Source: a virus
DNA length: 32,489 nucleotides
Reading direction: 5' to 3' (one strand)
Virus record (IMG/VR): IMGVR_UViG_3300044951_001144
Location: 1-32,489 of that record
The position numbers were made by a program, and so were the translations under genes. Of this stretch, positions 13,566-32,489 are shown piece by piece (within the stretch, counting starts at the first letter, position 1; each line of letters starts with the position of its first letter). The notes beneath the pieces were generated by a model. That model had not been told where the DNA came from, did not search any database, and saw only the letters and a list, made by a program, of their open reading frames with translations.

Positions 13566-13598
13566 TGTTTGAATGGTAAGGAGTTAGGAAGTAAGAGA

Positions 13599-13679
13599 AT
13601 GGATAAAGATTGTATGTATACAAGCGTTTATGATAGGCATGGTATTGCAGGATGTCGCAGGGGCCTTCCAGCCATGTAG
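13599..13679 (+). CDS. Possible 26-residue leader peptide
   Basis: Within the late leader, ATG 13599 follows AAGGAGTTAGGAAG and opens a 26-codon frame (MDKDCMYTSVYDRHG..., ending LPAM) closed by TAG 13677-13679. Downstream bases 13656-13695 contain AGGGG and CCCCT arms, which could form a hairpin. It may be a real leader peptide or simply chance; the ribosome site is the main support. Confidence 0.35.
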   Translation: MDKDCMYTSVYDRHGIAGCRRGLPAM

Positions 13680-13751
13680 GTGGGATACCCCTTTTGACGA
13701 AGTCTTTGAAACAAAACTAGTCCCCGATTTATGAAACGAAAGGAAATCAAA

Positions 13752-15011
13752 ATGAAGGAAAAGAAGAGCAAAGTTGACTTATCTGCAGACATTCCAATCC
13801 ATTGCAGTTATTCACAACTGACTGCAATACAAGAGCTTAATCCAAACCCACGTAATTACAACAAGCACCCAGACGAGCAGATCGCCTTGCTTGCTAAAAA
13901 CATACGTGCTTTGGGTTGGCGTCACCCGATCATCGTCAGCAAGTTGTCTGGAAAGATTGTTGCAGGCCACGCTCGTTTGGAGGCCGCTAAACTATTATCA
14001 CTTCAAACCGTCCCAGTTGACTTCCAGTCATTCAACTCGCAAGACGAAGAGAACGCTTATTTGATAGCCGACAACAAGATTGCCGAACTTGCCGAGCTTG
14101 ACGAATCGCAACTCAAGGAACTATTGACTGAGCTGACAGCAAGTGAGATTGATATGGACTTAACTGGATTCACTGAGCAGGCGTTAAGCGAGATACTCAA
14201 GCAAGAGGACGGAGAAGCGGACGCAGAACCACAGATTGATAATGCAGATGAGCTAAACAAGGTCTGGCAGGTTAAAGTCGGAGACGTTTGGACGATAGGA
14301 AATCACAGATTGATGTGTGGTGATAGCACAAATAATAATGATGTTGATAAGTTAATGATGGGAGAAAAGGCAAGCATGGTTTTCACAGACCCACCATACA
14401 ATGTTGATTATGGTGCAAACGAAAATCATCCATCGCATAAAATTAGAACAATTGTAAATGATAAAATGTCAGACTCTGACTGGAATAAGTTTGTTGTTGG
14501 ATATATGAAGTCTATTTTTAGAATGACGGATGGTAATATTTATATATCTATGTCAGACAAGGAGCTTGGACATATGCAATCAACCTTTAGAGATTGTGGT
14601 GGAAAGTGGGCAAGTTTCATCATTTGGGTTAAAGACAGTTTGGTTTTATCGGCAAAAGATTATCACTCTAGGCATGAAACGATATTATATGGATGGAAAG
14701 AAGGAGCAAAAGAACGTCTAAGAGTTGAGGACAGAAAACAAGATGATGTGTGGGAGATTGATAGGCCAAAGAAATCCGAAGACCATCCAACAATGAAACC
14801 AGTAGCTCTTGTTGAAAGGGCGATAAATAATAGCTCAAAGCAAGGATGGATTATTGGCGATCTGTTTCTCGGTTCTGGAACAACAATGGTCGCTTGCGAA
14901 AACCTCCACCGCAAGTGCTACGGAATGGAAATAACACCGAACTATTGCGCTGTTATCCTGCAACGCATGAAAGACGCATTCCCATCACTCGAAATTAAGC
15001 GTGTAGAATAA
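13752..15011 (+). CDS. ParB-like domain fused to DNA methyltransferase
   Basis: ATG 13752 is preferred over ATG 13731 because GAAAGGA lies between them. Residues 20-115 are a ParB/sulfiredoxin-like domain: ELNPNPRNYNKHPDEQI, then GKIVAGHARLEAAKLL (GxxRxxA motif) and a helical tail. After an acidic linker (about 150-165), residues 170-419 are a methyltransferase with DPPYNVDY (213-220), HPTMKPVALVERAI and DLFLGSGTTMVA, the beta-class order, likely adenine N6 or cytosine N4. Such fusions often lie beside terminase genes in phages, as here, and may modify DNA before packaging. DNA for the methyltransferase half is more A/T-rich than the ParB half. Confidence 0.85.
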   Translation: MKEKKSKVDLSADIPIHCSYSQLTAIQELNPNPRNYNKHPDEQIALLAKNIRALGWRHPIIVSKLSGKIVAGHARLEAAKLLSLQTVPVDFQSFNSQDEENAYLIADNKIAELAELDESQLKELLTELTASEIDMDLTGFTEQALSEILKQEDGEADAEPQIDNADELNKVWQVKVGDVWTIGNHRLMCGDSTNNNDVDKLMMGEKASMVFTDPPYNVDYGANENHPSHKIRTIVNDKMSDSDWNKFVVGYMKSIFRMTDGNIYISMSDKELGHMQSTFRDCGGKWASFIIWVKDSLVLSAKDYHSRHETILYGWKEGAKERLRVEDRKQDDVWEIDRPKKSEDHPTMKPVALVERAINNSSKQGWIIGDLFLGSGTTMVACENLHRKCYGMEITPNYCAVILQRMKDAFPSLEIKRVE

Positions 15012-17756: not shown

Positions 17757-18284
17757 ATGGCCATGGCAAGTACTTTATCTATTTTACCATCTGATTTAAT
17801 TCAAGGCGAGTCAATCAATAAGACTCTCCCAAGCACAGTAACGGTTACAGGTTACACGCTTGTCTATAAATTTTCAAGTCAGCCTACACCTATCGAAGTC
17901 GCGTGTACTGGTACGACTGTTTGGGCTTTAACGGTCACTGGCGCACAGACGCTACTATGGGGGCGAGGCATAGTTCGCTATGCGGCCTATCTAACAAATT
18001 CAACGTCTGGCGCAGTGACGGTTATTGATTCTGGTACGATTACGGTTGAAGCGTCACCGATTGCAACGAGCCAATACACAGCCGCACTCGCCGCAGTTGA
18101 GGCCGCAATTCTGTCATACGCCTCAAATCCCAACCGCTCAATCAGTGTCGGGACAATCCGAATTGATTACAAGGATTTTAAAGAGCTTGAAATGTTGCGT
18201 GATTATTACAAGCGCGAAATCGCTAAAGAAACTGGCAACGGTTACGGCGGTGGTCGCGTAGTCCTGTTAACGAGGTTCAACTAA
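17757..18284 (+). CDS. Beta-sandwich domain plus gpW-like head-tail joining region
   Basis: Residues 1-100 look like an all-beta domain (LPSDLIQGESINKTLPSTVT, IVRYAAYLTNSTSGAVTVID). Residues 105-160 (YTAALAAVEAAILSY, SVGTIRIDYKDFKELEML, RDYYKREIAKE) resemble gpW-type connector proteins. In lambda gpW also lies between terminase and portal, which fits. No Shine-Dalgarno site is visible before ATG 17757, and a second ATG lies two codons later; TAATAT just upstream is a -10-like sequence. Confidence 0.6.
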   Translation: MAMASTLSILPSDLIQGESINKTLPSTVTVTGYTLVYKFSSQPTPIEVACTGTTVWALTVTGAQTLLWGRGIVRYAAYLTNSTSGAVTVIDSGTITVEASPIATSQYTAALAAVEAAILSYASNPNRSISVGTIRIDYKDFKELEMLRDYYKREIAKETGNGYGGGRVVLLTRFN

Positions 18285-19780
18285 TGTTTGACTTTTTGAA
18301 GCGCAAAAATAGGAAGTCGCCATTTAACTTTGGCGTGAGGTCATTTTCGGCGGCTGAAATGTCGCGTATTTTGCGCCCTTGGACATTCGACAAAGGATTT
18401 GATAACCAAGAGATTGAAAGTCAACAGCGCACAATCGTAGCACGTTCGCGTGAGATGTATAAGAACAGCGCACACATGAAGCGGTTTGTTTCGCTCTTTG
18501 AAACTAACGTGGTAGGTGACGGCTTCAAACTGAAAAGCACACCGTACGATGGCGTGGCAGGTCAAAAGGATTACAAGCTAGACACCTCTGCGGCTCGTTA
18601 TTTCGAGGATCACTTTTGGAAGTGGGCAAACAATCCGAAATGGTGTGACGCTACTGGGCGCAAGACATTAGTCGAGATTGACAGAATGTGCGTCAAGAAC
18701 TGGGCGCGTGATGGCGAGTATTTCATTATCATTTATCGCGGTCAACCCAACCCTTATGGGATTAGCTTGCGCGTTATTCGTCCAGACGCTTGTGATAGTC
18801 GCTACCGTGCAACAGCAAGCAACGGAAATCCTGTCCGTGGCGGTGTAGAGTTGGACGCTAACACGATGGCTCCAGTTGCGTATTACGTTCAAACGACTAA
18901 GGAATATTCAAGCGTTTCAACGGCTCTCGGAAATATGCGCCGTATTCCTGCATTTGACCCAGAAAAAGACCAAGCCGAAAGCATGATTCACGGTTACACG
19001 CAAGAAGAGGAAGACCAGACAAGAGGCATACCGCTATCCCATGCAATCCTAAAGAAGCTCAAAATGTTGGATGAGCTGGACATTGCAGAGCTAGTCGCCG
19101 CAAAGGATGAGGCGTGTACTGTTCACAGTTATGAGTCAACGAATAATAACCCAGAGACTTTCATTGACTTGACCACAGCTGAAGGTTCGGCAATGGCGAA
19201 CACCTATATGCAGGAAAAAGAGGCAGGAATGTCGGAGATTCTGCCTGCTGGATGGACGCGCAAAACGAATACGCCACAGCACCCGAATATGCAGTTAGTT
19301 CCGTTCAAGGCTACGATGCTGAAAGACATTGCAAGCGGTGTCAATGTTGAACACGCGAATTTCTCCAACGATTGGGCTGGCGTTTCCTATTCGTCAGTCC
19401 GTCAAGGCACGTTATCAGAGCGTGATATGTGGATGACCATGCAAGACCGCTATATGGGTCAATGCAAAACTCCTGTTTATCTCGCTTGGATGCGCTCATT
19501 CTTGGCTAATGAGGTGAGCGGTGGTTTCATGATTATGAAGTTTTGGAAGTTTAAGGAGCATTACTTCCGTGGTCGCCGTTGGGGATGGGTTGACCCGATG
19601 CGTGATATGCGAGCCAACGAAGTCGCAAGGCTTCACGGATGGAAGAGCGACACGCAGATTGCCGAGGACTTTGGTGGCGACTTTGAGGACACGGTTGACC
19701 AGATTAAACGTGATGACGAAATCAAAAAGGGAACATCTTTGGAGGTAAAAGCAGATGAAAAACAAACAGAAGCAAAATGA
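18284..19780 (+). CDS. Portal protein (lambda gpB-like)
   Basis: The 498-residue product matches the lambda-type portal family in order: an N-terminal arm (FDFLKRKNRKSPFNFG), IVARSREMYKNSAHMKRFVS with a following ETNVVGDGFKL, WARDGEYFIIIYRG, LRVIRPDACDSRY, an I.HGY box with LSHAILKKLKMLDELDIAEL, and the C-terminal VEHANFSNDWAGVSYSSVRQ. The portal is the dodecameric ring through which DNA enters and leaves. Length is close to lambda gpB (533). The start shares one base with the preceding stop. Confidence 0.9.
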   Translation: MFDFLKRKNRKSPFNFGVRSFSAAEMSRILRPWTFDKGFDNQEIESQQRTIVARSREMYKNSAHMKRFVSLFETNVVGDGFKLKSTPYDGVAGQKDYKLDTSAARYFEDHFWKWANNPKWCDATGRKTLVEIDRMCVKNWARDGEYFIIIYRGQPNPYGISLRVIRPDACDSRYRATASNGNPVRGGVELDANTMAPVAYYVQTTKEYSSVSTALGNMRRIPAFDPEKDQAESMIHGYTQEEEDQTRGIPLSHAILKKLKMLDELDIAELVAAKDEACTVHSYESTNNNPETFIDLTTAEGSAMANTYMQEKEAGMSEILPAGWTRKTNTPQHPNMQLVPFKATMLKDIASGVNVEHANFSNDWAGVSYSSVRQGTLSERDMWMTMQDRYMGQCKTPVYLAWMRSFLANEVSGGFMIMKFWKFKEHYFRGRRWGWVDPMRDMRANEVARLHGWKSDTQIAEDFGGDFEDTVDQIKRDDEIKKGTSLEVKADEKQTEAK

Positions 19781-21593
19781 AGAGCGCAATAAGGACGGCC
19801 TGACCTTCCGTGATTGCGTCTTCGAGATTCGAGAGATTAACGAGGAAGGCAAAGAGCCTGTCAAAGGGCTGTATATGTCTGCGTCCAGTGAAGAGCCTGT
19901 ATTGACATACGCACGGTATAATGGCGAATATCAGAGAGTCTATGAGATTCTTGACCATTCACCTTCGAGCGTGAATATGTCGCGTATGAAAGACGGCTTG
20001 ATTATTCAGGATACACACTGGGGCGACCAAATAGGACTTATCCGCAAAGTGTCTCTAGATGGAAAGAAGCTTGGCGGTATTGCAGAATTTTGTTGCGGTG
20101 AACGGGCGCAAGAGATAGCGCAGGATGCAATGAAGGGGCTACGCAGGAATACAAGTGTTGGATACATTTGCAATCCTGAAAGCTATAAACTCGACGGAGA
20201 AAAAGACGGTATACCCGTGGTACGGTGTACTGATTGGACTCCTTATGAGGTTTCCTTTGTGAACGTCCCAGCGGACACAAGTGTCGGTGTAGGCCGTGAA
20301 TTGAACATTAAACAAAGCCCTTCAAACGATGAAGGCAAACGAAAGGAAGAGGTTATTATGAACCCTAAACAGATGGCAGAACTTGCAAAGCGTGCAAACG
20401 AAAACGGAGTCAGTGACAAGCTGGCTGGAATTATGGAAACGGCAGAGACTTTTGAAGCCGCCGAGCGTGCATTGAATGATGCGATTATCGTATCGCAACG
20501 CGCACAGATTCAGAGTCTCAAGGTGGTCGCACCTGCAAAGGTTGACCCTGTGGCACAGCGGACGGTTGCACCTGTGATTGACGTTCCTAATAAGGAAATG
20601 CGCCAGTATAGCGTTATGAAGGCTCTCCGCGCAATCGGTGGTGACAAGTCGGTCGACGCTGGTTTCGAACGTGAAGTGTCTGAAGAGCTGGCTAAACAGC
20701 GTGGCAAATCGGCAAGCGGTATCATTGTTCCGTTTAGCGCACTTGGTAAACGTGCATTCACGGTTGCTGGTACGTCTTCGGCTTCGGTCTCGACTGACCT
20801 AATGGCGAATGACTTCATCGACTTGCTCCGTACTCAATCAGTCCTCGGTGCGGCTGGTGTTCGCTTCATGACTGGTTTGGTCGGCAATGTCGCAATTCCA
20901 AAGATGACCGCTGGCGCAACTGGTTACTGGGTTGCTGAAGCTGGTGATATCACTGGTTCACAGCCTACGATGGGTCAAGTGACTGGCACTCCTCACACTT
21001 GCGGTGTGTTGGTTGACATTAGCCGTAAGCTTCTGCAACAGTCCACGCCGTCCGCTGAAATGCTCGTCCGTGATGAAATCATGGAGCGCATTATCCGCAC
21101 AATCCAGATCGCTACGTTCGCAGGAACTGGCGCAGATGGACAGCCGAGTGCAATCACCAACGCGACAGGTATTAATGACGTTAGTGTAACGACAGGGACG
21201 CCAACCTATGCTGAACTGCTCGGCTTTATCGGTGCAATCATGGCTGATAACGCAATGGCAGACAATCAAAAGTGGATTGGTACTGGTGAAGTGTGGGCTA
21301 AGTTGGCGGCAACCGCAACGAACGGAGCAGGGTCTCCTCTCGCTCTGGATGCCGCGACTAACAAGCTGATTGGCCGTGACTTCCTTACTACCGAGGACGT
21401 GCCTGCCAATTCGCTGTGGTTTGGTAACTGGAATACCGTAACCGTTGGCGTGTGGGGTAATGGTCTTGACATTACGGCAGATACCGCAACACTGTCAAGC
21501 TCTGGCGGTCTGCGTTTGGTCGGATTGCAGGATGTTGATATCATGGTTCGCAACGGTCAAGCGTTGGCCTATGATCTGGCCGTCACAAGCTAG
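19755..21593 (+). CDS. Fused prohead protease and HK97-fold major capsid protein
   Basis: The 612-residue protein combines two functions. Residues 20-185 look like the HK97-type serine protease: QDTHWGDQIGLIRKV (H88), RRNTSVGYI (S134) and WTPYEVSFVNVPADTSVG. A linker with scaffold-like helices (202-290) follows, then the capsid (about 310-612: NDFIDLLRTQSVLGAAGVRF, YWVAEAGDITGSQPTMG, DVDIMVRNGQALAYDLAVTS). GGAGGT precedes ATG 19755, which overlaps the portal gene by 26 nt. An in-frame ATG at 20358 has its own ribosome site and may produce separate capsid precursor. Confidence 0.9.
   Translation: MKNKQKQNEERNKDGLTFRDCVFEIREINEEGKEPVKGLYMSASSEEPVLTYARYNGEYQRVYEILDHSPSSVNMSRMKDGLIIQDTHWGDQIGLIRKVSLDGKKLGGIAEFCCGERAQEIAQDAMKGLRRNTSVGYICNPESYKLDGEKDGIPVVRCTDWTPYEVSFVNVPADTSVGVGRELNIKQSPSNDEGKRKEEVIMNPKQMAELAKRANENGVSDKLAGIMETAETFEAAERALNDAIIVSQRAQIQSLKVVAPAKVDPVAQRTVAPVIDVPNKEMRQYSVMKALRAIGGDKSVDAGFEREVSEELAKQRGKSASGIIVPFSALGKRAFTVAGTSSASVSTDLMANDFIDLLRTQSVLGAAGVRFMTGLVGNVAIPKMTAGATGYWVAEAGDITGSQPTMGQVTGTPHTCGVLVDISRKLLQQSTPSAEMLVRDEIMERIIRTIQIATFAGTGADGQPSAITNATGINDVSVTTGTPTYAELLGFIGAIMADNAMADNQKWIGTGEVWAKLAATATNGAGSPLALDAATNKLIGRDFLTTEDVPANSLWFGNWNTVTVGVWGNGLDITADTATLSSSGGLRLVGLQDVDIMVRNGQALAYDLAVTS
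20341..20360 (+). promoter_or_regulatory. Internal ribosome site and start inside protease-capsid fusion
   Basis: GAAAGGAAGAGG (20341-20352) lies 5 nt before ATG 20358, codon 202 of the fusion and in frame. Translation here would give a 411-residue scaffold-plus-capsid protein (MNPKQMAELAKRA...) without the protease, allowing more capsid than protease. Confidence 0.6.
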
Positions 21594-21612: not shown

Positions 21613-21634
21613 AAGCGAGGACGTTCACTCGCTT
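21613..21634 (+). repeat. 7-bp hairpin after capsid gene
   Basis: AAGCGAG (21613-21619) pairs with CTCGCTT (21628-21634) around an 8-nt loop, 20 nt after the capsid stop. No T-run follows, so mRNA stabilisation or processing is more likely than termination. Confidence 0.6.
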
Positions 21635-21666: not shown

Positions 21667-22128
21667 ATGAATAAGTTTAACGGTTTTTTAGTTTCGATTA
21701 TGTTATCAGCTGGCGTATATGCGGCAGATGCTAATCAAATGAAGTATGTTCAGATGTTGCCTCCGAATGTCTCAACAAACTTGAGCGTTACAGGTGACAC
21801 TATTGATATCGCAAACTATAAAGGTAATGCGGCGTTGGTAGTTGAAACTGCGACATCAAGCGCAATGACCAACACGATCACGGTTACGCTTCAGCACAGC
21901 ACGGCAAGCAACTTTGCTAACCCTACAACGGTTACAAATTTGGCTGGAACAGCTGGCGTATTGACCGAGACCTGTACGACCAACACGGCGGACACAGTCA
22001 ACATTCAAACGTACCCGATTGATACGGCACGTTTGCACAAGTATATCCGCGTTATTTATACGACCACAATGGCAGACGCATACATTCCTGTGTCTGCTTT
22101 GTTTGTCGCACCGATGAAAGCAGAGTAA
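21667..22128 (+). CDS. Decoration-like protein with apparent signal peptide, 153 aa
   Basis: GAAAGGA (21654-21660) supports ATG 21667; an upstream TTG extension lacks a site. The first 19 residues (MNKFNGFLVSIMLSAGVYA, then AD) look like a Sec signal peptide with an AxA-type cleavage site, which is odd for a gene right after the capsid. The rest is Thr/Ala/Asn-rich and beta-structured (DTIDIANYKGNAALVVETAT, TITVTLQHSTASNFANPTTV). Position suggests a head decoration protein; the leader suggests export. I cannot decide between them. Confidence 0.6.
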   Translation: MNKFNGFLVSIMLSAGVYAADANQMKYVQMLPPNVSTNLSVTGDTIDIANYKGNAALVVETATSSAMTNTITVTLQHSTASNFANPTTVTNLAGTAGVLTETCTTNTADTVNIQTYPIDTARLHKYIRVIYTTTMADAYIPVSALFVAPMKAE

Positions 22129-22141
22129 ACAACTAAACCAT

Positions 22142-22171
22142 TCCCCCATGCAGATGGTGGGGGAGTCTTTT
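22142..22171 (+). terminator. GC-rich hairpin, weak terminator or SD-masking element
   Basis: TCCCCCA (22142-22148) pairs with TGGGGGA (22158-22164) around a 9-nt loop, followed by GTCTTTTA. It lies after the capsid/decoration genes and could partly terminate to favour their expression. The 3' arm contains GGGGGAG, the only purine-rich ribosome-site candidate for ATG 22178, so folding would also block translation of the next gene. Confidence 0.6.
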
Positions 22172-22177
22172 AAACCT

Positions 22178-22510
22178 ATGTCACTTCTAACAGATATAAC
22201 AGGCGCAGTAAACGGACTTATGACCTCACTGCCAGAGCTTACAGGAACGCTAGTCAATAGCAATGGTGATTCGGTGACTGTCATATTTACGCAGGGCTAT
22301 ATCATGCGCGACAATTCGGCATTAGGCGCACTTGACGCAACGGCAAGCACGTTTGACATTTTAGAAGCTAACATCTTAGCAAGCGGTATGAATTTAGGCG
22401 ACTCCGTAACGATTACCGATTCACAAGGCATCGTTACAAAGGCGCGGTTACTCTCAAAAGGTAACTCACTCAATTTCGTAACATTCACTTTTGAGGCGGT
22501 GAACCAATGA
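22178..22510 (+). CDS. Small head-tail or tail protein, 110 aa
   Basis: I use ATG 22178 because the in-frame ATG 22148 lies inside the hairpin stem. The protein (MSLLTDITGAVNGLMTSLPE ..., DILEANILASGMNLGDSVTI) has a helical start and a beta-rich end. Its position after the capsid genes and before the gp10-like protein suggests a head-completion or head-tail joining role. No family is assigned with confidence. Confidence 0.6.
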   Translation: MSLLTDITGAVNGLMTSLPELTGTLVNSNGDSVTVIFTQGYIMRDNSALGALDATASTFDILEANILASGMNLGDSVTITDSQGIVTKARLLSKGNSLNFVTFTFEAVNQ

Positions 22511-23241
22511 TCACCATGTCAATAGATAATGCGAGCGTTCAGTCTATCGTCAATGACATTAAACGCTTGGAGGTAGCCGGAAAGAAGTCGGCAAGAGAAG
22601 CAACAGAGTGGGCAGGCGTTACTATTTTAAGATCGCTCGGAGCACAGACAAAAGTTTCTCCAAAAAAGAGAAAGATCGTAACGCAAGTCACGGACGTTGG
22701 CGGTGGTATAAACGCTAAAGGTCGCAAGGTTAGAGGCAAGAAGATACGAACAAAAGGCGTTATGATTTGGCGCGTATTAAATGGAAAAGCAAAAGAGGTA
22801 TTTTTCCCTATTGATTTTGACAAAGATGTGCCAGTTGTTCACTTCATTGGAAGAAACAACAATGCTCTAGTGAGATTTATAAGTACAGGAAATGTTGTTT
22901 CAGAGAGAGCTTATTCCGCAATGACAAAATACCAGATTGCCAAAAATTCGTATCTTGCTTTTATCCGCATGGCTGGACTTGCGAAAAAGTCATGGAATTG
23001 GATGAAGAAGCGGTCAAAGCGTGGAGGTGGTGTAAGTGAAAGATTTGGAGGGCGTGTTGTTAATGTAGGATCAATTTCATGGATGGGAGACAACTTAACC
23101 ATTCACAATAGGCTTGGTTATATTACTGACGCTCTTAAAGGTGGCACATCATCTATTGACCAAGCAATACGCGATGGTGCAGAGAGTTTCAAATGGAAGG
23201 TTGACGAATTACTAGGACTTCACGAGATTAAAACGCAATGA
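22507..23241 (+). CDS. HK97 gp10-like head-tail/tail completion protein
   Basis: The 244-residue protein begins with the pattern of gp10-type minor tail proteins: a helix (SIVNDIKRLEVAGKKSAREA), then ILRSLGAQTKVSPKK and a basic loop (NAKGRKVRGKKIRTKGV). Most gp10 homologues are shorter (about 120-160), so the C-terminal 100 residues (MKKRSKRGGGVSERFGGR...) are an extension. The gene overlaps its neighbours at both ends (ATGA). The central DNA is more A/T-rich than adjacent genes. Confidence 0.55.
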   Translation: MITMSIDNASVQSIVNDIKRLEVAGKKSAREATEWAGVTILRSLGAQTKVSPKKRKIVTQVTDVGGGINAKGRKVRGKKIRTKGVMIWRVLNGKAKEVFFPIDFDKDVPVVHFIGRNNNALVRFISTGNVVSERAYSAMTKYQIAKNSYLAFIRMAGLAKKSWNWMKKRSKRGGGVSERFGGRVVNVGSISWMGDNLTIHNRLGYITDALKGGTSSIDQAIRDGAESFKWKVDELLGLHEIKTQ

Positions 23242-23729
23242 ACATCCCAAAAACAATCGAATCGGCAACCGTTGATGCTCTCCGTTCTTACGGCGTAGGG
23301 GCTGAAACTCTTATCCGTTCATGGCGCAACCTTCAAAAGGATGAAAAGTGGGACGAAGATAACGACCGCTCTTTTCCTTGCATTGACGTTAAAGCGTCCC
23401 CTCCACGGCTTGACCAAGCAAACGCAGTTACGCTCATGTGTGAAGTCGCATTAACAATCTACACCAAGCTTGCTGACGATCAATCGCACAGCGTCCTAAA
23501 TTCGATTGAGCAAGCGACCCAAGAGTGCATTGATACTTTGTACGCACAACACCGCTCAAACGCAACCACAGGCCTGTACGCTGACTTGGTGGCTTCAATC
23601 GAAAGCGAGTGCGCTGTTTCTATCGGTGGGCTGTATATTGGCGACCCTACACCACCAGATGAGGACGGAGAGGGTCGGACGTATGTTGGATTAACTTTAG
23701 TCATTGCCTATAGTCGGGCTGACTTTTAA
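23238..23729 (+). CDS. Putative tail terminator protein
   Basis: At 163 residues, with an N-terminal helix (PKTIESATVDALRSYG), a strand pair around RSFPCIDVKASPPRL and VTLMCEVALTIYT, and a closing strand (TYVGLTLVIAYSRADF), it follows the pattern of gpU-like tail terminators, which cap the tube and join it to the head. Position between the gp10-like and tail-tube genes agrees. Sequence support alone is modest. Confidence 0.55.
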   Translation: MNIPKTIESATVDALRSYGVGAETLIRSWRNLQKDEKWDEDNDRSFPCIDVKASPPRLDQANAVTLMCEVALTIYTKLADDQSHSVLNSIEQATQECIDTLYAQHRSNATTGLYADLVASIESECAVSIGGLYIGDPTPPDEDGEGRTYVGLTLVIAYSRADF

Positions 23730-23744
23730 CAAGAGGAAAAAACT

Positions 23745-24542
23745 ATGGCAGATGTAAAACCGTGGGCAGTAAAAAGTACAGATGACATTTTCGGCATTTT
23801 GGCAATCGTGGACGGTGGAGGGACGCTTGCTGATATTCTGAAGATTAAAGGGTCAACTCGCACACCGATTGCAAAGGGAACGAGCATTGCAAGTGATGAA
23901 TACGGAGACGTATGCGCCAAGTCAATTTACGGAGCAGCTATAACCCAATTCGAGGCTACTTCTGAATTTGAGGTAACCAGTGGAACACTTAATACCGCTC
24001 TGTTATTCTTGGGCGCAACAGCAACGAGCGGAACAAACATCACTGGCATTTCAATCAAAACTTCAAACGGTGGCTGGCCTACTCTGTCAATCACTGGTAA
24101 TGTCGGCAAGGTGTTAGAAGCCGCTCCAACTGGCAAACTCAATAAATGGGCATTACCTTCTATTAGCGTTACAGGTCGAAAGGTAGCACAAGAGTTTGGC
24201 GGTGGCGGTGCTGGCGGTCATGGATTCTCAACTGAGGCAGATTGCAAGTGTACTGGAAGCGGACTCGACTTCACGGTTAACTTCTCGGAAACGACAGACG
24301 GTGAAGGTTTGCCAGTCTCGTTTTCAATTCATGGCGCAGACGGTTCAATGAGTGCTGACTTTGTGGCGTTCGCAGAGTTGGCTCAATTCCTGCAACCGTG
24401 GACGCTTGACGCAACGACAGGCTTCCTGTGGAGCAACATTGCCAACCCTGCAACGTCCAAAGCTCCAAACGAGTACTGGACTGGATCGGCAAGCGCAACG
24501 CTCGCTGACCCTGCAACCTCATTGACTCGCGTATCGGCATAA
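23745..24542 (+). CDS. Putative major tail (tube) protein
   Basis: The 265-residue product is beta-rich and Gly/Thr/Ser-rich (EATSEFEVTSGTLNTALLFL, TGISIKTSNGGWPTLSITGN, FTVNFSETTDGEGLPVSFSI). Its position just before a chaperone-like gene and a tape-measure-like gene is the usual place of the tail-tube subunit. GAGGAAAAA is the ribosome site for ATG 23745. Codon use is that of a well-expressed gene (many GCA/ACT/GGC). Confidence 0.65.
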   Translation: MADVKPWAVKSTDDIFGILAIVDGGGTLADILKIKGSTRTPIAKGTSIASDEYGDVCAKSIYGAAITQFEATSEFEVTSGTLNTALLFLGATATSGTNITGISIKTSNGGWPTLSITGNVGKVLEAAPTGKLNKWALPSISVTGRKVAQEFGGGGAGGHGFSTEADCKCTGSGLDFTVNFSETTDGEGLPVSFSIHGADGSMSADFVAFAELAQFLQPWTLDATTGFLWSNIANPATSKAPNEYWTGSASATLADPATSLTRVSA

Positions 24543-24548
24543 AACCAC

Positions 24549-25193
24549 ATGAAGAACTACCGCACACTTTCGAGTCAAGCGGAGGCAGAGATCGAGGCGT
24601 TACGCGCACAAGGCGTGACGCTCTCGGACTCTGATATTATCGCCATTAACGCGCTTGCATGGGAAATCGAAACACCATCCAAGCGCGTGTCATTGGCGCG
24701 TGGAAAGCCTATCAAGTGCGGTAATGTGTTCTTTTGGCCGTTGACCATTCATAGCGGTACATGGTTCAGTGATACAGGAAAGCATTTCGATAATGCCACA
24801 TACGCACTTGCCTACGCGATGGCACACAGGGACGATGATTTATACCTTGTTTCAGGGCAAGACGTTGACCGTTGGTTTAAAACAGTAAGGGCAACACAGG
24901 ACGAGCTTAATGAGTGCCTAGCCATTATCATTGACCAATCAAGCAGGGATGATTTGCCGACAAGCGATGATGATAAGATCACGCTTTCTCAGTTGGCGCA
25001 ATTGATGGTCGATAATCATGGCGGTAATTTCGAAATGTGGGAACGTCAATGTTCAATTGATTACGTGCGCAACTTTATTGATACGACTTGTAAACAGGAC
25101 GAAGCGGAACAGAAGAAAACGCGCATTGAAAAAGCAACTCTAATTCTCGCTCGCTACACTCAATCACTTTTAAGGAAGCACAATGGCAAATAA
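24549..25193 (+). CDS. Putative tail assembly chaperone-like protein, 214 aa
   Basis: It lies between tail tube and tape measure, where tail assembly chaperones are encoded. Residues 55-80 (IKCGNVFFWPLTIHSGTWFS) and the C-terminal helices (KITLSQLAQLMVDNHGGNFE) fit proteins I have seen in that position. No slippery sequence or second frame for a frameshift product is evident. It overlaps the tape-measure gene by 11 nt. There is no strong ribosome site, so coupling to the tube gene is likely. Confidence 0.5.
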   Translation: MKNYRTLSSQAEAEIEALRAQGVTLSDSDIIAINALAWEIETPSKRVSLARGKPIKCGNVFFWPLTIHSGTWFSDTGKHFDNATYALAYAMAHRDDDLYLVSGQDVDRWFKTVRATQDELNECLAIIIDQSSRDDLPTSDDDKITLSQLAQLMVDNHGGNFEMWERQCSIDYVRNFIDTTCKQDEAEQKKTRIEKATLILARYTQSLLRKHNGK

Positions 25194-26637
25194 AGACCTA
25201 AAGATTAAACTTATTACGCAGAACCTATTGCCAGCAGGACTTTCGCAGGCACAGAGAGACGTTAAGTCATTCTCGCGTGGTCTTAAAGGAATTTTTGATA
25301 TTGGCGCAAAACCAGCCGCAGTTTTAACGGCTGGATTAATGGCTATTAAAAAAGCGGCAGAGTTCGTTGAAGAGGGGTTTAATGGAATAGGGAGAGTATT
25401 TCGTGATTTGCGCACAGAGTCACTTGCAAAAGATTTTGATAATTTAAAGAAATCAATAAACGATGTTTCTCAATCATTCATCGCAAGCAAAGAGTCTTTT
25501 GATTCTGAAAACAAAATTCTTGAATCACAGCAAAAGAACGTAAGGGCTTTAGAGGACGCTAATAATAATCTAGCAAAATCAAAAAAGCTGATGACGGCAA
25601 CAAGCGCAGAACAAGCAAGCGCAATGGAAGAAGAGTATAAAATAAGCCAGATCACTTTGGATGCGAAAAGAAAAGAGCAAGACATTTTGGATAATGTTGC
25701 AAAAGCAAAAGCCGACGCTAACAGGAAAACACAAGAAGCTAATGAGTTGCAAAAGGAATCGGAAAGACTTGAAGCTATCGCAATTTCAAACGGAGATAGA
25801 TCACTTGAAATGCAACGCAAGAAAAACGATTTAATGCAATCGAAGTCTCTTGGCACATTTGCGTCAACGGTTACAGGAACAAGCAAGAAAGAGCTTGATA
25901 GTTTAGAGGAAGCGCGAAAGGCTTCAAAAGAAATATCAGAGCGTAGTTTCGAGGAAAAGCAGGCACTAGATCGTAGGATAGCCAAGTTGCGGATGGAGGC
26001 TGTAGAGATAGCAAAGACAACTGGTGACAAACAGTATTTGATTGAGCAAGTTACAGCACAGCAAGCGGCTTCATTTTATGAGATACAGGCAAAAAATAGA
26101 ATCAAGGATATTGAAGATAGACGCGCCTATGCAGAGAAGGCCGTTGAGAACGAACAAAAGTTATATGATATACTTGTTGTGCAAAAGAAAAAGCACGTTG
26201 AAGAAATGAAGGCTCTCGAAGAAAGGAAACAAGACGCAGAGGAAAATTTGGCAGAAAAAGAAAAGAAAAGAAACGGACAAGGATTACAAGATAGAATAAA
26301 CCAAGCCAAGAAACTTGCAGAAATGACGGTTAAGGAATTTTTGGCTAAAGGAAAAGCTGACGAGGATAAAGAAAAATCTGACAAAAAGCAAAAAGGAAGA
26401 TATACAGAGCTTAGAAATAGAGAGCTTCGTGGAACAAAGTTATCGAAAGAGCAAATCAAATTTATGCAGGCATTTGAACTTATAGAGGAAGCAAAAAACA
26501 AACTAGGAAAATTGCAAAAGCAGGCTGTAGACGAAGCGCAGAAAAAAGCAGTGATTGACATCGCGAGAGCAGCCGACACGTTAAACCTAGTTCTTGCAGA
26601 ACAACGCAAACTTAAGCCACTTCTCGAAGCAAACTAA
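25183..26637 (+). CDS. Tape-measure-like coiled-coil tail protein
   Basis: The 484-residue protein is nearly all helical coiled coil, rich in Lys/Glu/Ala. A hydrophobic segment near the N-terminus (AAVLTAGLMAIKKAAEFV, residues 45-65) resembles membrane-active stretches of tape measures. If tail length follows the usual rule of about 0.15 nm per residue, the tail would be near 70 nm. A/T-rich codons (AGA, AAA, ATA) differ from those of the tube gene. No lysozyme or peptidase domain is seen. Confidence 0.65.
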   Translation: MANKDLKIKLITQNLLPAGLSQAQRDVKSFSRGLKGIFDIGAKPAAVLTAGLMAIKKAAEFVEEGFNGIGRVFRDLRTESLAKDFDNLKKSINDVSQSFIASKESFDSENKILESQQKNVRALEDANNNLAKSKKLMTATSAEQASAMEEEYKISQITLDAKRKEQDILDNVAKAKADANRKTQEANELQKESERLEAIAISNGDRSLEMQRKKNDLMQSKSLGTFASTVTGTSKKELDSLEEARKASKEISERSFEEKQALDRRIAKLRMEAVEIAKTTGDKQYLIEQVTAQQAASFYEIQAKNRIKDIEDRRAYAEKAVENEQKLYDILVVQKKKHVEEMKALEERKQDAEENLAEKEKKRNGQGLQDRINQAKKLAEMTVKEFLAKGKADEDKEKSDKKQKGRYTELRNRELRGTKLSKEQIKFMQAFELIEEAKNKLGKLQKQAVDEAQKKAVIDIARAADTLNLVLAEQRKLKPLLEAN

Positions 26638-26647
26638 GGAGCTTTTT

Positions 26648-26983
26648 ATGGCATTAGCAACATCAGTCAATGAGTATAGCTGGAAACTACAGAGCGGAGG
26701 TAGTAGTCCTGGCGGTTATGATTCGACATTCCAGCGCAAGAACGCAGACGGCTCTTTTACCACAAAGAAGCTGACCGTTAGCTATCTTGAAGTATATTCC
26801 GAGTATAAGCATTACGCTCTAACCGAGGACGCATGTACAAACTACATTACGGCGCATCCAGAGCTTTTGCTTCAGTACTCACGACAAGACGAGTTTGGCT
26901 TAAGCTTTACTTTGACAAAACGAAACACAGCTCGCACTAACTTTTCTTATACTCTTGCAGACGTACCAGAAACAGGGAGTTAA
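26648..26983 (+). CDS. Small tail protein, 111 aa
   Basis: AAGGAG overlaps the tape-measure stop and supports ATG 26648. The protein is short and beta-rich (SVNEYSWKLQSGGSSPGGYD, KLTVSYLEVYSEYKHYALTE). It probably belongs to the tail tip or distal tail, judged from position only. Confidence 0.6.
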   Translation: MALATSVNEYSWKLQSGGSSPGGYDSTFQRKNADGSFTTKKLTVSYLEVYSEYKHYALTEDACTNYITAHPELLLQYSRQDEFGLSFTLTKRNTARTNFSYTLADVPETGS

Positions 26984-26985
26984 TC

Positions 26986-28335
26986 ATGGGGCGCATATTT
27001 ACAAACACACCGATGGAGGGAAAGCCTTTAGCATTGCGCGGTCTTGCTAGGGGCTGGCGGTTGCTTGAGGAAGCGTGGGAGAGCTTGGAGATCATAGGCG
27101 GTCATGTCGAATGGCGTAATGGTCGCAATGGTTTAATACCGCGCATAGTTATTGACGCGCTTTCGAACGAAGGTGACGAAGACCCGTTGCACGTTTGGCA
27201 GATCAAAGATATAGGCGGTTTCACGTGCATCTATATGCCTGCCAATTCATTTGTTGTCAACGGTAAGGACTTTACCGCGCTACAAACTGGATTGACCGCA
27301 ATCGGTGTTGGCTCTCCCGATTGGTACTCCGTTGGATTGTTTGCGACTACAGGATTAAATGCGTATATTACTTTTGGCAGTAGAACATCAAGCGAAGAGC
27401 AAGGAAAGCCAGAGACGCTTAAATTCGGAACATCAGAGCCATCAAAAGAAACTAACCAAAGAATTGTAACTATAGCAATTCTCGCATATACAGCCACACA
27501 AGGTATTTATTCCCTTCATCATTCTGCAATCAATTATGAGCGGATTGGTTTCGACGGTGACAGTCCTTCTCCGTCTTATTGGAAGTCGTTATGCAGGCCG
27601 ACAACAAGTGCAGATTGGGTAAACGAAGATCACAGTATTGGTTTAAATGGATTCACGACTCCATTAACGCCAGATGAATTGCCATTCGCAGAAACGCCAG
27701 CACGGACACAGCATATCAGTTTGCGCGAAACAAAAACAGGCGGTGGAGCAGACCTTCGCTGGTACAATCTACGGACATTGATTAGCGACCTTAAAGCCAA
27801 TCTAGTAGCCGATACTTCATTCCTTGATGACTTAGGCGACGCGGTCGGAGGTTATATCGACTGGAATGATGACTGGAATTCAAGCGTGTCACATACAGGC
27901 ATTGACTTCAGCGGTTCAACGTCCGCAAAGGGGACTGGACTTTCGGGCGGCAATACAGACCACGATGATAGCTACTGGCATGAGGCTGGTTTGATTACGT
28001 CGCCATTTACAGATACGAAGAACTATGTCACTAGCGGAACTGTAAGGGCAGGAGAGTTTGCGCTTGAAGGTTCGCCTACTACAAACAAATGGACTAGTGC
28101 TATATTCAATGTAAGTGCTACATTTGATGTTTCATTTACTGGAAGCGGAACATGCTCTCTTTCTCTTGGAGGAGGTACTGGATACGATTTTACTGCAATC
28201 TATTTTAATGGTATCGCAGGCGTTGACATTACCAACTGGACAACAAAGGGCGGTTTGACTGGCTCAACCATTCAAGAGATTGCAATCGAGGACGCACAAC
28301 CGAGCGACAAAATACTCGTTATAAGGAGCGCATAA
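26986..28335 (+). CDS. Tail tip or receptor-binding protein, 449 aa
   Basis: The N-terminal 60 residues (GLARGWRLLEEAWESLEIIG) may anchor it. The middle is mixed (FTCIYMPANSFVVNGKDFTA), and the C-terminal 150 residues are Gly/Ser/Thr-rich beta structure (DFSGSTSAKGTGLSGGNTDH, SFTGSGTCSLSLGGGTGYDF) typical of fibre-like or carbohydrate-binding tips. GGGAG precedes ATG 26986. No enzymatic motif is recognised. Confidence 0.6.
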   Translation: MGRIFTNTPMEGKPLALRGLARGWRLLEEAWESLEIIGGHVEWRNGRNGLIPRIVIDALSNEGDEDPLHVWQIKDIGGFTCIYMPANSFVVNGKDFTALQTGLTAIGVGSPDWYSVGLFATTGLNAYITFGSRTSSEEQGKPETLKFGTSEPSKETNQRIVTIAILAYTATQGIYSLHHSAINYERIGFDGDSPSPSYWKSLCRPTTSADWVNEDHSIGLNGFTTPLTPDELPFAETPARTQHISLRETKTGGGADLRWYNLRTLISDLKANLVADTSFLDDLGDAVGGYIDWNDDWNSSVSHTGIDFSGSTSAKGTGLSGGNTDHDDSYWHEAGLITSPFTDTKNYVTSGTVRAGEFALEGSPTTNKWTSAIFNVSATFDVSFTGSGTCSLSLGGGTGYDFTAIYFNGIAGVDITNWTTKGGLTGSTIQEIAIEDAQPSDKILVIRSA

Positions 28336-28336
28336 C

Positions 28337-28978
28337 ATGAAAACGATTACTCTACTATTTGCGATATGTTTAGCCGTTTCGTTGCACGCGCAAACCAATA
28401 TCGTATGGTCGGACGGTACTCGCTTCTTTACAAAGGGCGGTGGAGGTGGTGTTACAAACGCACCTTATGGTTGGGATGACATTCTGGCAAGCGCAAACAC
28501 GGCCTATACGTCTGGACAAACGGACATTGAGCAGGACGACGCTTTGGGCGGTAAGTCGTTCAAGACCTCTGCTACCACGAACAAGGCGAACGACCATTTA
28601 ACGTTCACTCTGCAAGCGCCACATTCACGGAAAAAGGGGACAGACATTTATCCGCACTTGCACTTTTGGCAGACAAACGCAGACCAAACGAATATGTGGT
28701 ATTGCTATTACAATATAACAGGTGTAGGACATACGAACGAAACGGAGATATTCAGCGGTGTGGCCTCTAATCGCATTACCTATGCAGGCGGTACTATGCA
28801 CCAACTGGCATCATTTCAACCGATAACTGGACTTAGCAACGGAGTTTCAAGCATCATCCGAATTAAGCTACACCGTCAAGGAAACATAGGGACAGGCGCG
28901 GTCACGGTCACTGACTTAGACTGCCATGTACTAAAGGACGGCTTTGGAAGTGACAGCGAAACAGGCAAGAGTTATTAA
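28337..28978 (+). CDS. Fibre-like protein with Sec signal peptide, 213 aa
   Basis: It starts MKTITLLFAICLAVSLHA|QTN, a textbook signal peptide (basic n-region, hydrophobic core, small residue at -1). The mature part has a glycine run (FTKGGGGGVTN) and a domain with PHLHFWQTNADQTNMWYCYY that resembles C-terminal parts of phage fibre or virion-associated proteins. AAGGAG precedes ATG 28337. A signal peptide on a virion protein is unusual. Confidence 0.65.
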   Translation: MKTITLLFAICLAVSLHAQTNIVWSDGTRFFTKGGGGGVTNAPYGWDDILASANTAYTSGQTDIEQDDALGGKSFKTSATTNKANDHLTFTLQAPHSRKKGTDIYPHLHFWQTNADQTNMWYCYYNITGVGHTNETEIFSGVASNRITYAGGTMHQLASFQPITGLSNGVSSIIRIKLHRQGNIGTGAVTVTDLDCHVLKDGFGSDSETGKSY

Positions 28979-28991
28979 AGGAGTACAAATT

Positions 28992-29162
28992 ATGTCAACT
29001 ATTACAATCAATTTGACGTTGAAGCAAGCAGAAAATCTATGTATAATGATGTCTAAATCTGACCCATTCGGAATTTGGACAGGCGACATTTTGCAACAGG
29101 TTAACGAAACGGCCAAAAAGCATATTCACGAAATGATGGCAGAAAAGGAGAAAGCACAATGA
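28992..29162 (+). CDS. Small unknown helical protein, 56 aa
   Basis: AAAGGAGTACAA supports ATG 28992; the longer frame from 28944 overlaps the previous gene without a site. The product (MSTITINLTLKQAENLCIMM ... ETAKKHIHEMMAEKEKAQ) is helical. It lies between two fibre genes and could be a fibre chaperone or an unrelated small protein. Its stop overlaps the next start. Confidence 0.55.
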   Translation: MSTITINLTLKQAENLCIMMSKSDPFGIWTGDILQQVNETAKKHIHEMMAEKEKAQ

Positions 29163-30910
29163 GAAGTTTACTGATTGGTTTATTGATGGGCGTTTCGACA
29201 ATCGCAACCGCTGACCCTCGCGACTGGGCAAAGCGTATTCCGTGCGAGCTACAGACGGCAGGAGTGGCGAGCTTACCAACGCTCGAAGTATTGCAAGGGT
29301 CTAGTCCGCTGATCGCCTGTGACCAATATCGGAGCGGTAAGGCGTTGACCGTGACTAATGACGTTCAAGCGGTCATGCGGTTTTCAAGTTCGCTGACCAA
29401 TACTCTGTGGGTATCGGTGACAAATCAGAGTTACTATTCAAACAGCTATCTGATTCAATTGCCGTCACTCGGGACAAACGCCACATCATGGGTTTATACA
29501 ATCCTATACTACAAGGACAGCGCAATCTATTGGACAGGAACAGGACGGCTTGATATTAAGCGGACAGAGGTGACAGGCAATTCGCTGGTATGGCAACAGG
29601 TCGCAGGGTGTGTCTCTACTGCGGATGTAGCAACGGCTATTAGTACCCATAACACTAATTTAACATCACACGCAACTTTACTATCAAGCTATGTCACGCA
29701 AGCAATGACAAACGGATGGACGGTTTCAGCGCACCTCGATTGGCTGGTACGCTCTGAAACAAACGGATGGGTAGTATCACCACATCAAGCATGGTTGACC
29801 GCAGAGGCTGACCCAAACCTTGCGCCAGCGTTGTCGGCACTTAGTAACCAAGTAAATACGGCAAGCGTTAAGGCAACATCATCGGCAGGTAGTACGCTCA
29901 ATTCGTTAAGCGGTGCGGAGTGTTTACGTTGGGGCGTTGGCAGTTCTTGCGCTATCAGTACGACAGACGGTTTGCAGGTTGGCGGTACATTGAGCGCAAA
30001 TTTATTTAGTGGTAATGGCGCATCATTGACAAACCTTCCACCCAGCGCGATCACAGGCTTGACGAGCGCACTTGCTACACCGCTCGCCTACACACCAATC
30101 AGCACCACCGCTGGAGGTACGACCTTCACGGCCAACGTCACAAGCGCACGCAGTATCTACGACTTTACTGCAAGCGCAGTGAACGTCTATACGAATAACC
30201 TGTCCGCTCTATCGTTAAACGGCACGACTAATTACGCTTGGACTGCACGGATTAACTACACAGATACTAACGCACTAAGCACGACATGGGATAGCCGTAT
30301 CGAATGGGTCGGACTTGCAAGCACGACTCCAGACTTGACGGTCACAGGGAGATATGAGTTTGCGTTCAGCACATCGGACGGTGTTACGATTCAAGGACGG
30401 CAGGTTTATCCGAGCGTATATCAATATTCCAGTTTAACTGTTGGTGGGAAAATAATGAGCGGAGTAACGGGGACATGGGCGTTTAATTATGAGAGCGCAA
30501 ATCAATCTGGAGCTGTTACAGAATCAGCAACGTGCTATCCGTTTAGCGTTTCATCTGGGCAAAAATACTTTTATGCAAAAGTCTACTCTATGTGGGCTGG
30601 GAAAACTGGAACAGCTACAAACCTTTTAGCTGTAATGCAAGCAGACCACTATCCGTATTTAGCGGATGGATCTCTACGTGGCACAGTATATACAAATATT
30701 ATTGCCTATCAAGCAACCACATTGACCGAAAACAAATATATGCTAACTGGTTTTTCTGGAAACTCATTAAGCGACACGGTTTTGGCTATCGGAATCAGAA
30801 CTGGGACAGCGGATAATCTGTCTGGTTTTCGAGTATATAATTCAGTGTCAAAAATTAGAACAGCGAACGAACTTGAAATAAAAGCCTATAACGCAGGATG
30901 GAGGCCATAA
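29159..30910 (+). CDS. Large tail fibre protein with signal peptide, 583 aa
   Basis: The first 18 residues (MRSLLIGLLMGVSTIATA|DP) form a signal peptide with an ATA cleavage site. The body is Ser/Thr/Asn-rich and beta-structured, with two related segments (TNGWTVSAHLDWLV and TNGWVVSPHQAWLT, about residues 180-225) and the fibre-type motif ANLFSGNGASLTNLPPSAIT (about 280-300). The C-terminal part (ITYSADI-like strands, YNAGWRP end) probably forms the receptor-binding tip. It is the second longest structural protein here and the most likely host-range determinant. Confidence 0.7.
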   Translation: MRSLLIGLLMGVSTIATADPRDWAKRIPCELQTAGVASLPTLEVLQGSSPLIACDQYRSGKALTVTNDVQAVMRFSSSLTNTLWVSVTNQSYYSNSYLIQLPSLGTNATSWVYTILYYKDSAIYWTGTGRLDIKRTEVTGNSLVWQQVAGCVSTADVATAISTHNTNLTSHATLLSSYVTQAMTNGWTVSAHLDWLVRSETNGWVVSPHQAWLTAEADPNLAPALSALSNQVNTASVKATSSAGSTLNSLSGAECLRWGVGSSCAISTTDGLQVGGTLSANLFSGNGASLTNLPPSAITGLTSALATPLAYTPISTTAGGTTFTANVTSARSIYDFTASAVNVYTNNLSALSLNGTTNYAWTARINYTDTNALSTTWDSRIEWVGLASTTPDLTVTGRYEFAFSTSDGVTIQGRQVYPSVYQYSSLTVGGKIMSGVTGTWAFNYESANQSGAVTESATCYPFSVSSGQKYFYAKVYSMWAGKTGTATNLLAVMQADHYPYLADGSLRGTVYTNIIAYQATTLTENKYMLTGFSGNSLSDTVLAIGIRTGTADNLSGFRVYNSVSKIRTANELEIKAYNAGWRP

Positions 30911-31430: not shown

Positions 31431-31741
31431 CACCTTGCGAACAGAGGGACAACGTGATGGACATAAAAGCGTCCATTGGCAAAATCAAACAGACGCTCTA
31501 TGAAGGGAACGGCAAACCGTCCATTCTGTCACAGCTCGAAGTCGGCAATGAGAAGTTTAACGAGATTGACAAAAAGCTGGACGGACTAGACAAGAAGTTT
31601 GACACATTAGCGTCCTACGGTCGGGCGGTTGCGCTTTCGGTCTTGGGATTTATGGGCGTGATATTCTGGCAGATGGTACAGAAACATAATGCCGATACGT
31701 ATTACAAGACTGACGGCAAAATTACGGAGGTACGAAAATGA
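31427..31741 (+). CDS. Coiled-coil single-pass membrane protein (holin/XhlA-like)
   Basis: Residues 10-65 form a helical coiled coil (DIKASIGKIKQTLYEGN ..., FNEIDKKLDGLDKKFDTLAS), followed by one membrane helix (VALSVLGFMGVIFWQMVQ, about 70-87) and a short tail. This layout resembles XhlA-type haemolysin/holin accessory proteins. Position between fibre genes and a lipoprotein, in a lysis-like cluster, supports a role at the inner membrane during lysis. Confidence 0.6.
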   Translation: MTPCEQRDNVMDIKASIGKIKQTLYEGNGKPSILSQLEVGNEKFNEIDKKLDGLDKKFDTLASYGRAVALSVLGFMGVIFWQMVQKHNADTYYKTDGKITEVRK

Positions 31742-32019
31742 AAAGCGCATTTATAACAAGTTTATCGGTTGTATTGTTGATCGGTTGCAATGCGTCACCT
31801 AATCAGCTTCACGGTCAGTTTTCGGTTTTTACATTTGACAATCGCACGTTTTATGAGTCTCCTGCAAACGCCACCAATCGCGCCACAATAGGGCAAGGCG
31901 GTCATGGAAGCAATAGCCGTGTGTATTGCGACACGTTACAAGGCATGGTGCTTTATAAGTCACCTATGACCGCTTCTAGCAATTCAACCCCTGTATCGGT
32001 TGAGATGCCGATTAAATGA
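31738..32019 (+). CDS. Small lipoprotein, 93 aa
   Basis: The N-terminus MKSAFITSLSVVLLIGCNAS has a basic start, a hydrophobic core and a lipobox (LIGC, C17), so the mature form of 77 residues should be lipid-anchored. The body (FSVFTFDNRTFYESPANATN) is polar and not proline-rich, unlike typical Rz1 spanins. It overlaps the previous gene (ATGA). It could be an outer-membrane spanin-like lysis protein or a superinfection exclusion lipoprotein. Confidence 0.65.
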   Translation: MKSAFITSLSVVLLIGCNASPNQLHGQFSVFTFDNRTFYESPANATNRATIGQGGHGSNSRVYCDTLQGMVLYKSPMTASSNSTPVSVEMPIK

Positions 32020-32126
32020 TTTACTTTGCGCCTGCCAGTCCGTTTCATGGACGGATTGGCAACCGAGACCTCTACACGCGTTACACGGTCAAGGGGGCGC
32101 GATTTTTTGAAAGGATAGACCAATGA
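32016..32126 (+). CDS. Possible 36-residue peptide overlapping an RNA structure
   Basis: ATG 32016 overlaps the lipoprotein stop and TGA 32124-32126 overlaps the next start, the coupling pattern used across this genome. The product (MIYFAPASPFHGRIGNRDLY ...) is basic. The same bases fold into a strong RNA structure, so coding is uncertain. No clear ribosome site is seen. Confidence 0.35.
   Translation: MIYFAPASPFHGRIGNRDLYTRYTVKGARFFERIDQ
32026..32108 (+). terminator. Branched RNA structure ending in six T
   Basis: An outer stem (TTGCGCC at 32026-32032 with GGCGCGA at 32096-32102) could enclose an 11-bp hairpin (TGCCAGTCCGT 32033-32043 with ACGGATTGGCA 32051-32061, one G-U) and a weak GACC/GGTC stem. 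Six T follow (32103-32108), and the GAAAGG ribosome site comes next. It may be a terminator or attenuator before the last gene, or a structured regulatory RNA. Confidence 0.5.
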
Positions 32127-32489
32127 GTGATAAAGACGTTTTTGAGGCAATCAAGTTTTACAAGCTCCGTGCTTGCGTTGAATTCTACTGCATGAGTGAG
32201 AAATCGTTCGCTCGTATCTACAACGGTTATGGCCCAGACGCATGGCCTAATAGTATGCGGTCAATCCTTACATGGATTTTCGGAAACTTTAAAGAGGTCG
32301 CAGGTGTGCATGATGTGGAGTATTACTATTCGACAGGAACACGAGCAGGGTTTAATCAAACGGTTAAACACTGGAAGCAGAACAGCTCAATCATGCTATC
32401 GGTTCGCTATCCTATGTCATCGCCTAGCCTATGGATTCACCGAGCGATTGCATGGACAAAGCTCCGTATAGCCATGCGAGCGATTGCAG
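32123..32489 (+). CDS. PLA2-like protein, N-terminal part (3' truncated)
   Basis: GAAAGG (32109-32114) supports ATG 32123; the frame runs off the window after 122 codons. Residues 33-37 read YNGYG and residues 63-67 HDVEY. Together these resemble the calcium loop (YxGxG) and catalytic HDxxY motif of phospholipase A2, best known from parvovirus capsid proteins. A helix separates the two motifs (SMRSILTWIFGNFKEVAGV), as in that fold. The C-terminal region recurs at the left end of the window. In the lysis-like cluster it could attack membrane lipids. The enzymatic call rests on two short motifs only. Confidence 0.6.
   Translation, partial: MSDKDVFEAIKFYKLRACVEFYCMSEKSFARIYNGYGPDAWPNSMRSILTWIFGNFKEVAGVHDVEYYYSTGTRAGFNQTVKHWKQNSSIMLSVRYPMSSPSLWIHRAIAWTKLRIAMRAIA
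32331..32489 (+). repeat. Imperfect terminal direct repeat, right copy
   Basis: This matches 1-159 with 31 differences and no gaps, and the window ends exactly where a 19-base identical block (32471-32489) ends. The composite gene made by dropping one copy keeps the frame; so does direct joining, since 159 is divisible by three. Confidence 0.85.

Follow-up and report, generated by a model that had tools for sequence, protein, structure and literature searches.

Sec-type signal peptides predicted on post-capsid, nozzle and fibre proteins of tailed phages, and a possible role for export in their assembly

The virions of tailed phages are taken to assemble wholly in the cytoplasm. What, then, would Sec-type signal peptides be doing on proteins encoded among the head and tail genes of such a virus? 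The question is raised by an IMG/VR virus record of 32.5 kb that is classed as linear and is analysed here over its whole length of 32,489 nucleotides (the window), in which an initial annotation had described three proteins of this kind together with a lipoprotein. The window encodes a portal of the lambda type, a capsid fused to a protease and a terminase resembling gpA, and genes for connector, tail and fibres come after these. The features that bear on the question are listed below, and proteins are named by their first nucleotide.

15011 to 17101, + strand: large terminase (phrog_38, PF20454); no signal peptide in our scan
18284 to 19780, + strand: portal protein (PF05136, E 3e-72); no signal peptide in our scan
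19755 to 21593, + strand: protease-major capsid fusion (phrog_617, E 1e-98; PF05065); no signal peptide in our scan
21613 to 21634, + strand: hairpin between the capsid stop codon and the signal-peptide gene; also at L006 5254-5275 and L003 3235-3254
21667 to 22128, + strand: post-capsid (decoration-slot) protein, 153 aa; predicted signal peptide at residues 1-19 (VYA^AD), mature domain matching phrog_5707
25183 to 26637, + strand: probable tape-measure protein, from its long coiled coil and gene position; no signal peptide in our scan
26986 to 28335, + strand: tail-tip/fibre-region protein, 5' of 28337, with a 75% identical homologue in L003; no signal peptide in our scan
28337 to 28978, + strand: fibre-tip protein, 213 aa; predicted signal peptide at residues 1-18 (LHA^QT), linker, C-terminal modelled beta-sandwich of about 170 aa with an [EK]GTxxxPHxH[WF] motif
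29159 to 30910, + strand: tail fibre-like protein, 583 aa; predicted signal peptide at residues 1-18 (ATA^DP), conserved N-terminal part of about 290 aa, exchangeable C-terminal tip
31738 to 32019, + strand: small lipoprotein; signal-peptide score 8.6, lipobox LIGC, Cys17

Signal peptides were called with a score of our own, calibrated on E. coli K-12. Searches for a prophage found none, either by terminase alignment or by tip-domain motif, the latter returning only Lutibacter. At least 8.5 was reached by 18 of 21 known exported E. coli K-12 proteins, and the highest-scoring soluble cytoplasmic protein was CarB, at 8.2; the inner-membrane protein NhaA passes and lambda Rz is also flagged, and the score alone does not distinguish short membrane anchors from cleavable signal peptides. 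On this scale four of the 55 window genes score high, 29159 at 9.4, 28337 at 8.8, 31738 at 8.6 and 21667 at 8.4, and the next-best gene reaches 4.6. Three of these belong to the structural block; the remaining one is the lysis-region lipoprotein. Shuffled N-termini gave a mean of 0.03 passes per genome, and none of the window's 115 internal Met starts or 60 minus-strand ORFs passed. All four reading frames were found at the coordinates listed, each preceded by a Shine-Dalgarno sequence, and the internal starts able to yield signal-less forms had, by eye, no good Shine-Dalgarno sequence upstream. The positive n-region, hydrophobic h-region, small-x-small site and correct spacing expected of Sec/signal peptidase I substrates are present in 21667, 28337 and 29159, and the predicted cleavage sites, VYA^AD, LHA^QT and ATA^DP, are those given in the initial annotation, whose reading of these N-termini as Sec-type signals is upheld. 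Its lipoprotein is likewise borne out, 31738 being the only one of the four to carry a lipobox (signal peptidase II); this may be an outer-membrane spanin or an exclusion lipoprotein, and in L003 the equivalent slot holds a different lipoprotein (13574-13885).

The controls agree that export signals on virion-type proteins are unexpected, as had been remarked: none was seen on the virion proteins of 13 reference phages. Nine of these controls were phages with homologous capsids, in which 0 of the 110 CDS of the virion block carried a signal, and among the 104 CDS of lambda, P22, crAss001 and 11b the score flagged only Lom, Rz, Rz1, Bor, lysis-region proteins or lipoproteins. No close isolate was found for 21667, 28337 or 29159, nor for the proteins of the loci L079 and L049 considered below; Prochlorococcus phage P-SCSP1i gave the nearest fibre match and was rejected as a close isolate with a signal-bearing fibre, having a T7-type N-terminus and no signal peptide.

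The signals can also be followed through the gene slots in which they occur. In 21667, residues 23-137 match positions 7-116 of the 134-position profile of phrog_5707, a family of unassigned function (E 4e-10), and the match begins just past the signal. TTG 21601 is another potential start of this reading frame, but the Shine-Dalgarno sequence precedes ATG 21667, where the L006 homologue also starts. In L006 the capsid is nearly identical to that of the window and the 21667 homologue, 75% identical, retains its signal. The head module of L003 and L004 is of another kind, with a GP7-like capsid, and the gene directly after the capsid encodes a signal peptide on a protein unrelated to 21667; both also have an additional signal-bearing protein with a Gly_rich_2 domain, which in phrog_2295 sits within a large protein. 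Unrelated signal-bearing proteins fill the post-capsid slot in the different head modules of the window, L003 and nine podophage loci. Comparison of the window with L003, L004 and L006 at the post-capsid and lipoprotein slots thus indicates that slot and signal are retained while sequences turn over. The AlphaFold model of 21667 was too poor for a structure search (pLDDT 52), and neither this protein nor 29159 had a Pfam match to an outer-membrane beta-barrel family. The hairpin upstream of the slot has a stem that is wholly different between the window, L006 and L003, with GGACG retained at the start of the loop. Since the P22 record annotates a stem-loop at the equivalent place, said to be similar in location to those of HK97 and lambda, the hairpin at the capsid 3' end is probably a known type of element.

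The fibre proteins present a related picture. No database match was found for 29159, and it shares its N-terminal 290 residues with the L003 homologue whilst the C-terminus differs, an exchange of tips of the kind seen in receptor-binding fibres. For 28337 the only matches were to a tip-domain family built in this analysis by degenerate DNA search, in which 86 viral contig stretches yielded 82 distinct members, and for which no Pfam or PHROG entry was found. The domain, of about 170 residues with a conserved PHxH motif, ends 0-8 residues short of the C-terminus in every one of the 100 scored members, 28337 among them. These proteins span about 150 to 1164 residues and many are long fibres; normally the domain ends fibres without a signal. 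AlphaFold models 28337 as a beta-sandwich; pLDDT exceeds 80 for most of the domain, and confidence is low in no part other than the leader and linker. The closest PDB matches of the model are the carbohydrate-binding modules CBM36, CBM15 and CBM6, and its closest viral models are collagen-type fibre proteins. A LamB porin (PF02264) scored 23 bits, below the cut-off of 25.1, and was rejected along with a Lom-type outer-membrane beta-barrel, the modelled fold being a sandwich and not a barrel. A role for disulphides in the family was also set aside, with 0-4 cysteines per domain and no clear pairing.

Among the 82 tip-domain proteins, signals occur in the window/L003 group, in L049 (where five consecutive genes carry them), L079 and L022, and in the cellular protein L112; the cellular proteins L115 and L116 carry them too. 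On a tree of 59 tip domains the trait needs six changes, with signal-bearing L022 sister to signal-less L081, so domain and signal appear to be readily joined. This tree does not place the window domain near those of the cellular proteins. The cellular proteins are signal-bearing products of Bacteroidota chromosomes (L112 5949-6977, L115 1105-1932, L116 1483-2319); two of the three genes adjoin one for a type IX-sorted-looking protein and the third adjoins one for a similar protein with a signal peptide. They may possibly represent a domesticated phage tip. That of Lutibacter oricola (L112) resembles 28337 in joining a signal to a C-terminal [EK]GTxxxPHxHW domain, but is chromosomal, lies outside a phage and has a VGIGTTTP fibre-like N-terminus.

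A division between signal-bearing and signal-less proteins is also seen in about ten divergent podophage contigs, where signals lie on the post-capsid gene, the tail nozzle (phrog_3287) and the fibres, and are lacking from terminase, portal, scaffold, capsid, adaptor and ejection proteins. The L079-relative set combines a Wzy_C gene, a signal-less SU10-type adaptor, a signal-bearing phrog_3287 nozzle, a small signal-bearing protein and signal-bearing fibres. In podophages 48-68% identical to L079, essentially every complete case has signals on the post-capsid protein (nine contigs of this set), nozzle and fibres and none on the major capsid protein or adaptor; a few members fall below threshold, such as the L128 fibre and the L119 small protein, and look signal-like by eye. 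The signal sequences diverge between podophages yet remain signal peptides. Taking all the signal sequences together, nearly all end in small-x-small, mostly with Ala at -1 and at the right spacing, and none continues as a long membrane helix. In one 39-kb record (G258), 7 of 7 presumed exterior proteins carry a signal against 0 of 8 packaging, shell and ejection proteins (Fisher p = 1.6e-4, with classes assigned by the analyst). The signal-bearing nozzle, in which three Cys columns are conserved, occurs in 11 podophage contigs and is single-copy in all 10 of the records examined, two of them about 40 kb long; if the nozzle is in the virion, it follows that the signal-bearing form supplies it. 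An O-antigen ligase (Wzy_C) gene was also observed within the virion block, between the post-capsid signal-peptide gene and the adaptor (L125 1844-2983, with equivalents in L118-L128).

Homologues without the hydrophobic N-terminus, which had been named beforehand as grounds for discarding the signals, do exist at a distance: the nozzle of L129, a distant relative, has no signal, and the podophage nozzle is homologous to the signal-less stabilisation protein of podophage ct52p938. This does not undo the prediction, the window signals being present, and shows that the signal is a module added in certain lineages. It forms an N-terminal addition to the phage domains of phrog_5707, the phrog_2295 glycine-rich fibre domain (L003), phrog_3287 (L079) and the 28337 tip, and the arrangement appears to have arisen independently in unrelated phages.

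How might such proteins reach a virion? We infer that 21667, 28337 and 29159 are virion proteins from domain or family and gene position, and of the options raised in the initial annotation, periplasmic assembly would fit best. It seems to us an evenly balanced prospect that Sec exports the proteins of the virion exterior, which then attach to heads made in the cytoplasm once lysis opens the inner membrane, and slightly short of even that several unrelated tailed-phage lineages use such a two-compartment assembly, in which filled cytoplasmic heads would be completed by Sec-sent decoration, nozzle and fibre proteins. The post-capsid protein, fibre and fibre tip are predicted from sequence to be made as Sec precursors with signal-peptidase-I sites. 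Late translocation and cleavage would leave the folded exterior proteins waiting in the periplasm, while heads would be built and filled in the cytoplasm from signal-less proteins. On opening of the inner membrane by holin, heads would meet concentrated exterior parts before or during the outer-membrane break, and these would bind. Such a route might, speculatively, avoid premature binding to envelope precursors, provide a calcium-rich oxidising compartment for the folding of lectin-like tips and leave fewer virion proteins open to cytoplasmic immune sensors. The joining in vitro of heads with separately made tails, spikes and fibres is classical, which makes late joining plausible on chemical grounds. 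The chief obstacle is the retention of DNA before a nozzle is in place. In P22-type phages the nozzle contributes to keeping the packaged DNA inside, so that, were it to join late, filled heads would stay open or be held by the adaptor alone. Parts freed at lysis would also be diluted.

The exported proteins might instead act away from the virion, coating or blocking receptors on the infected or lysed cell, changing the surface of a lysogen or serving as free decoys, in the manner of Lom or T5 Llp. We regard this as unlikely, though lambda has a gene for the signal-peptide protein Lom (score 10.0), with J to one side of it and the side tail-fibre genes to the other (PMC12309495). The modelled carbohydrate-binding-module-like fold of the 28337 tip would suit such a role, as would the presence of the domain in secreted Bacteroidota chromosomal proteins and the separate, signal-bearing form of the adhesin-like Gly_rich_2 protein of L003. 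However, it leaves unexplained the signal on the post-capsid protein in several head modules and on a single-copy nozzle, with no second, signal-less nozzle to serve the virion; moreover, none of 21667, 28337 and 29159 is a lipoprotein, and the model of 28337 does not show a barrel. Receptor blocking, one of the earlier suggestions, is weakened, since the post-capsid gene and nozzle in related systems carry signals too.

Still less probable, in our estimation, is that the N-termini stay uncleaved as hydrophobic anchors, keeping the proteins attached to the inner membrane so that assembly can take place there, or being retained on the virion. The score's inability to tell a short anchor from a signal peptide, illustrated by Rz, allows for this, and P22 gp7 is annotated in its record as a virion protein whose N-terminus is removed without Sec; against it stand the small-x-small sites at the right spacing in nearly all the sequences, mostly with Ala at -1, the lack of a long membrane helix in every one, and the proper lipobox on 31738. 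That the phage captured the genes of fibre-like surface proteins secreted by a host, and that their signals were kept without a special role, we consider very improbable, although chromosomal signal-bearing tip-domain proteins lie beside type IX-like or signal-bearing surface proteins in three Bacteroidota genomes and the six changes on the domain tree show how readily domain and signal combine. The window tip domain is not near the cellular ones, both 21667 and the nozzle are members of phage families, and the podophage signals are retained over large divergence and recur slot by slot on unrelated proteins. Recent capture, as first proposed, is not supported for 21667 and 29159, whose signals are joined to phage families, conserved in relatives and found again on a different protein in the slot; it may still apply to 28337, whose tip domain occurs in secreted chromosomal Bacteroidota proteins.

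Export followed by late assembly can also be set against systems already described. M13 pIII and pVIII are virion proteins with Sec signal peptides, in a phage whose particles form in the membrane and leave the cell by extrusion, with no lysis. The present proteins are similar in being virion-type and bearing Sec signals, but they belong to tailed dsDNA phages whose head, portal and packaging proteins are signal-less. Lambda Lom and Bor are comparable in that their genes, within or close to the late region, encode a signal-peptide protein or a lipoprotein; they are, however, outer-membrane proteins of the lysogen and not of the virion, and Lom is a beta-barrel whereas 28337 is modelled as a beta-sandwich. 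T5 Llp is a receptor-blocking lipoprotein, and so shares predicted export with these proteins and a lipobox with 31738, but 21667, 28337 and 29159 are not lipoproteins and have fibre or decoration-slot domains. The podophage nozzle is homologous to the P22 gp10-type head-closure/stabilisation proteins (phrog_3287), differing in the added signal.

In the literature searched, which was open-access with most subscription journals outside it, we found nothing on exported exterior virion proteins, exported tail fibres or post-lysis assembly in tailed phages. Two-compartment assembly would, if true, be a previously undescribed route for tailed viruses. It would bring a new compartment into how phages assemble, when they lyse the cell and how the host senses their proteins, and annotation pipelines would be expected to mislabel such fibres as host secreted proteins. 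In a study of a Bacteroides phage (PMC6199706), the absence of signal peptides was taken as consistent with binding proteins having come from a phage and not from a cell; if some lineages routinely export exterior virion proteins, a rule that no signal peptide means phage origin would fail.

Other features of the window were noted in passing. An Rfam search matched nothing. The terminase (15011-17101) is mosaic relative to that of L015 (3342-5333, - strand), with about 260 C-terminal residues identical and the N-terminal ATPase part far more divergent. Upstream of it, 13731-15011 encodes a ParB-methyltransferase fusion with many similar phage proteins, the best isolate match being about 43% identical. 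The product of 32123-32488 has, by eye, a phospholipase A2-like pattern (NGYGPD...HDVEYYYSTG) and had no Pfam match. The ends of the window (6-159 and 32336-32489) are 82% identical and represent two alleles of the 32123 gene region; the genome may be circular, with the record joined from two strains.
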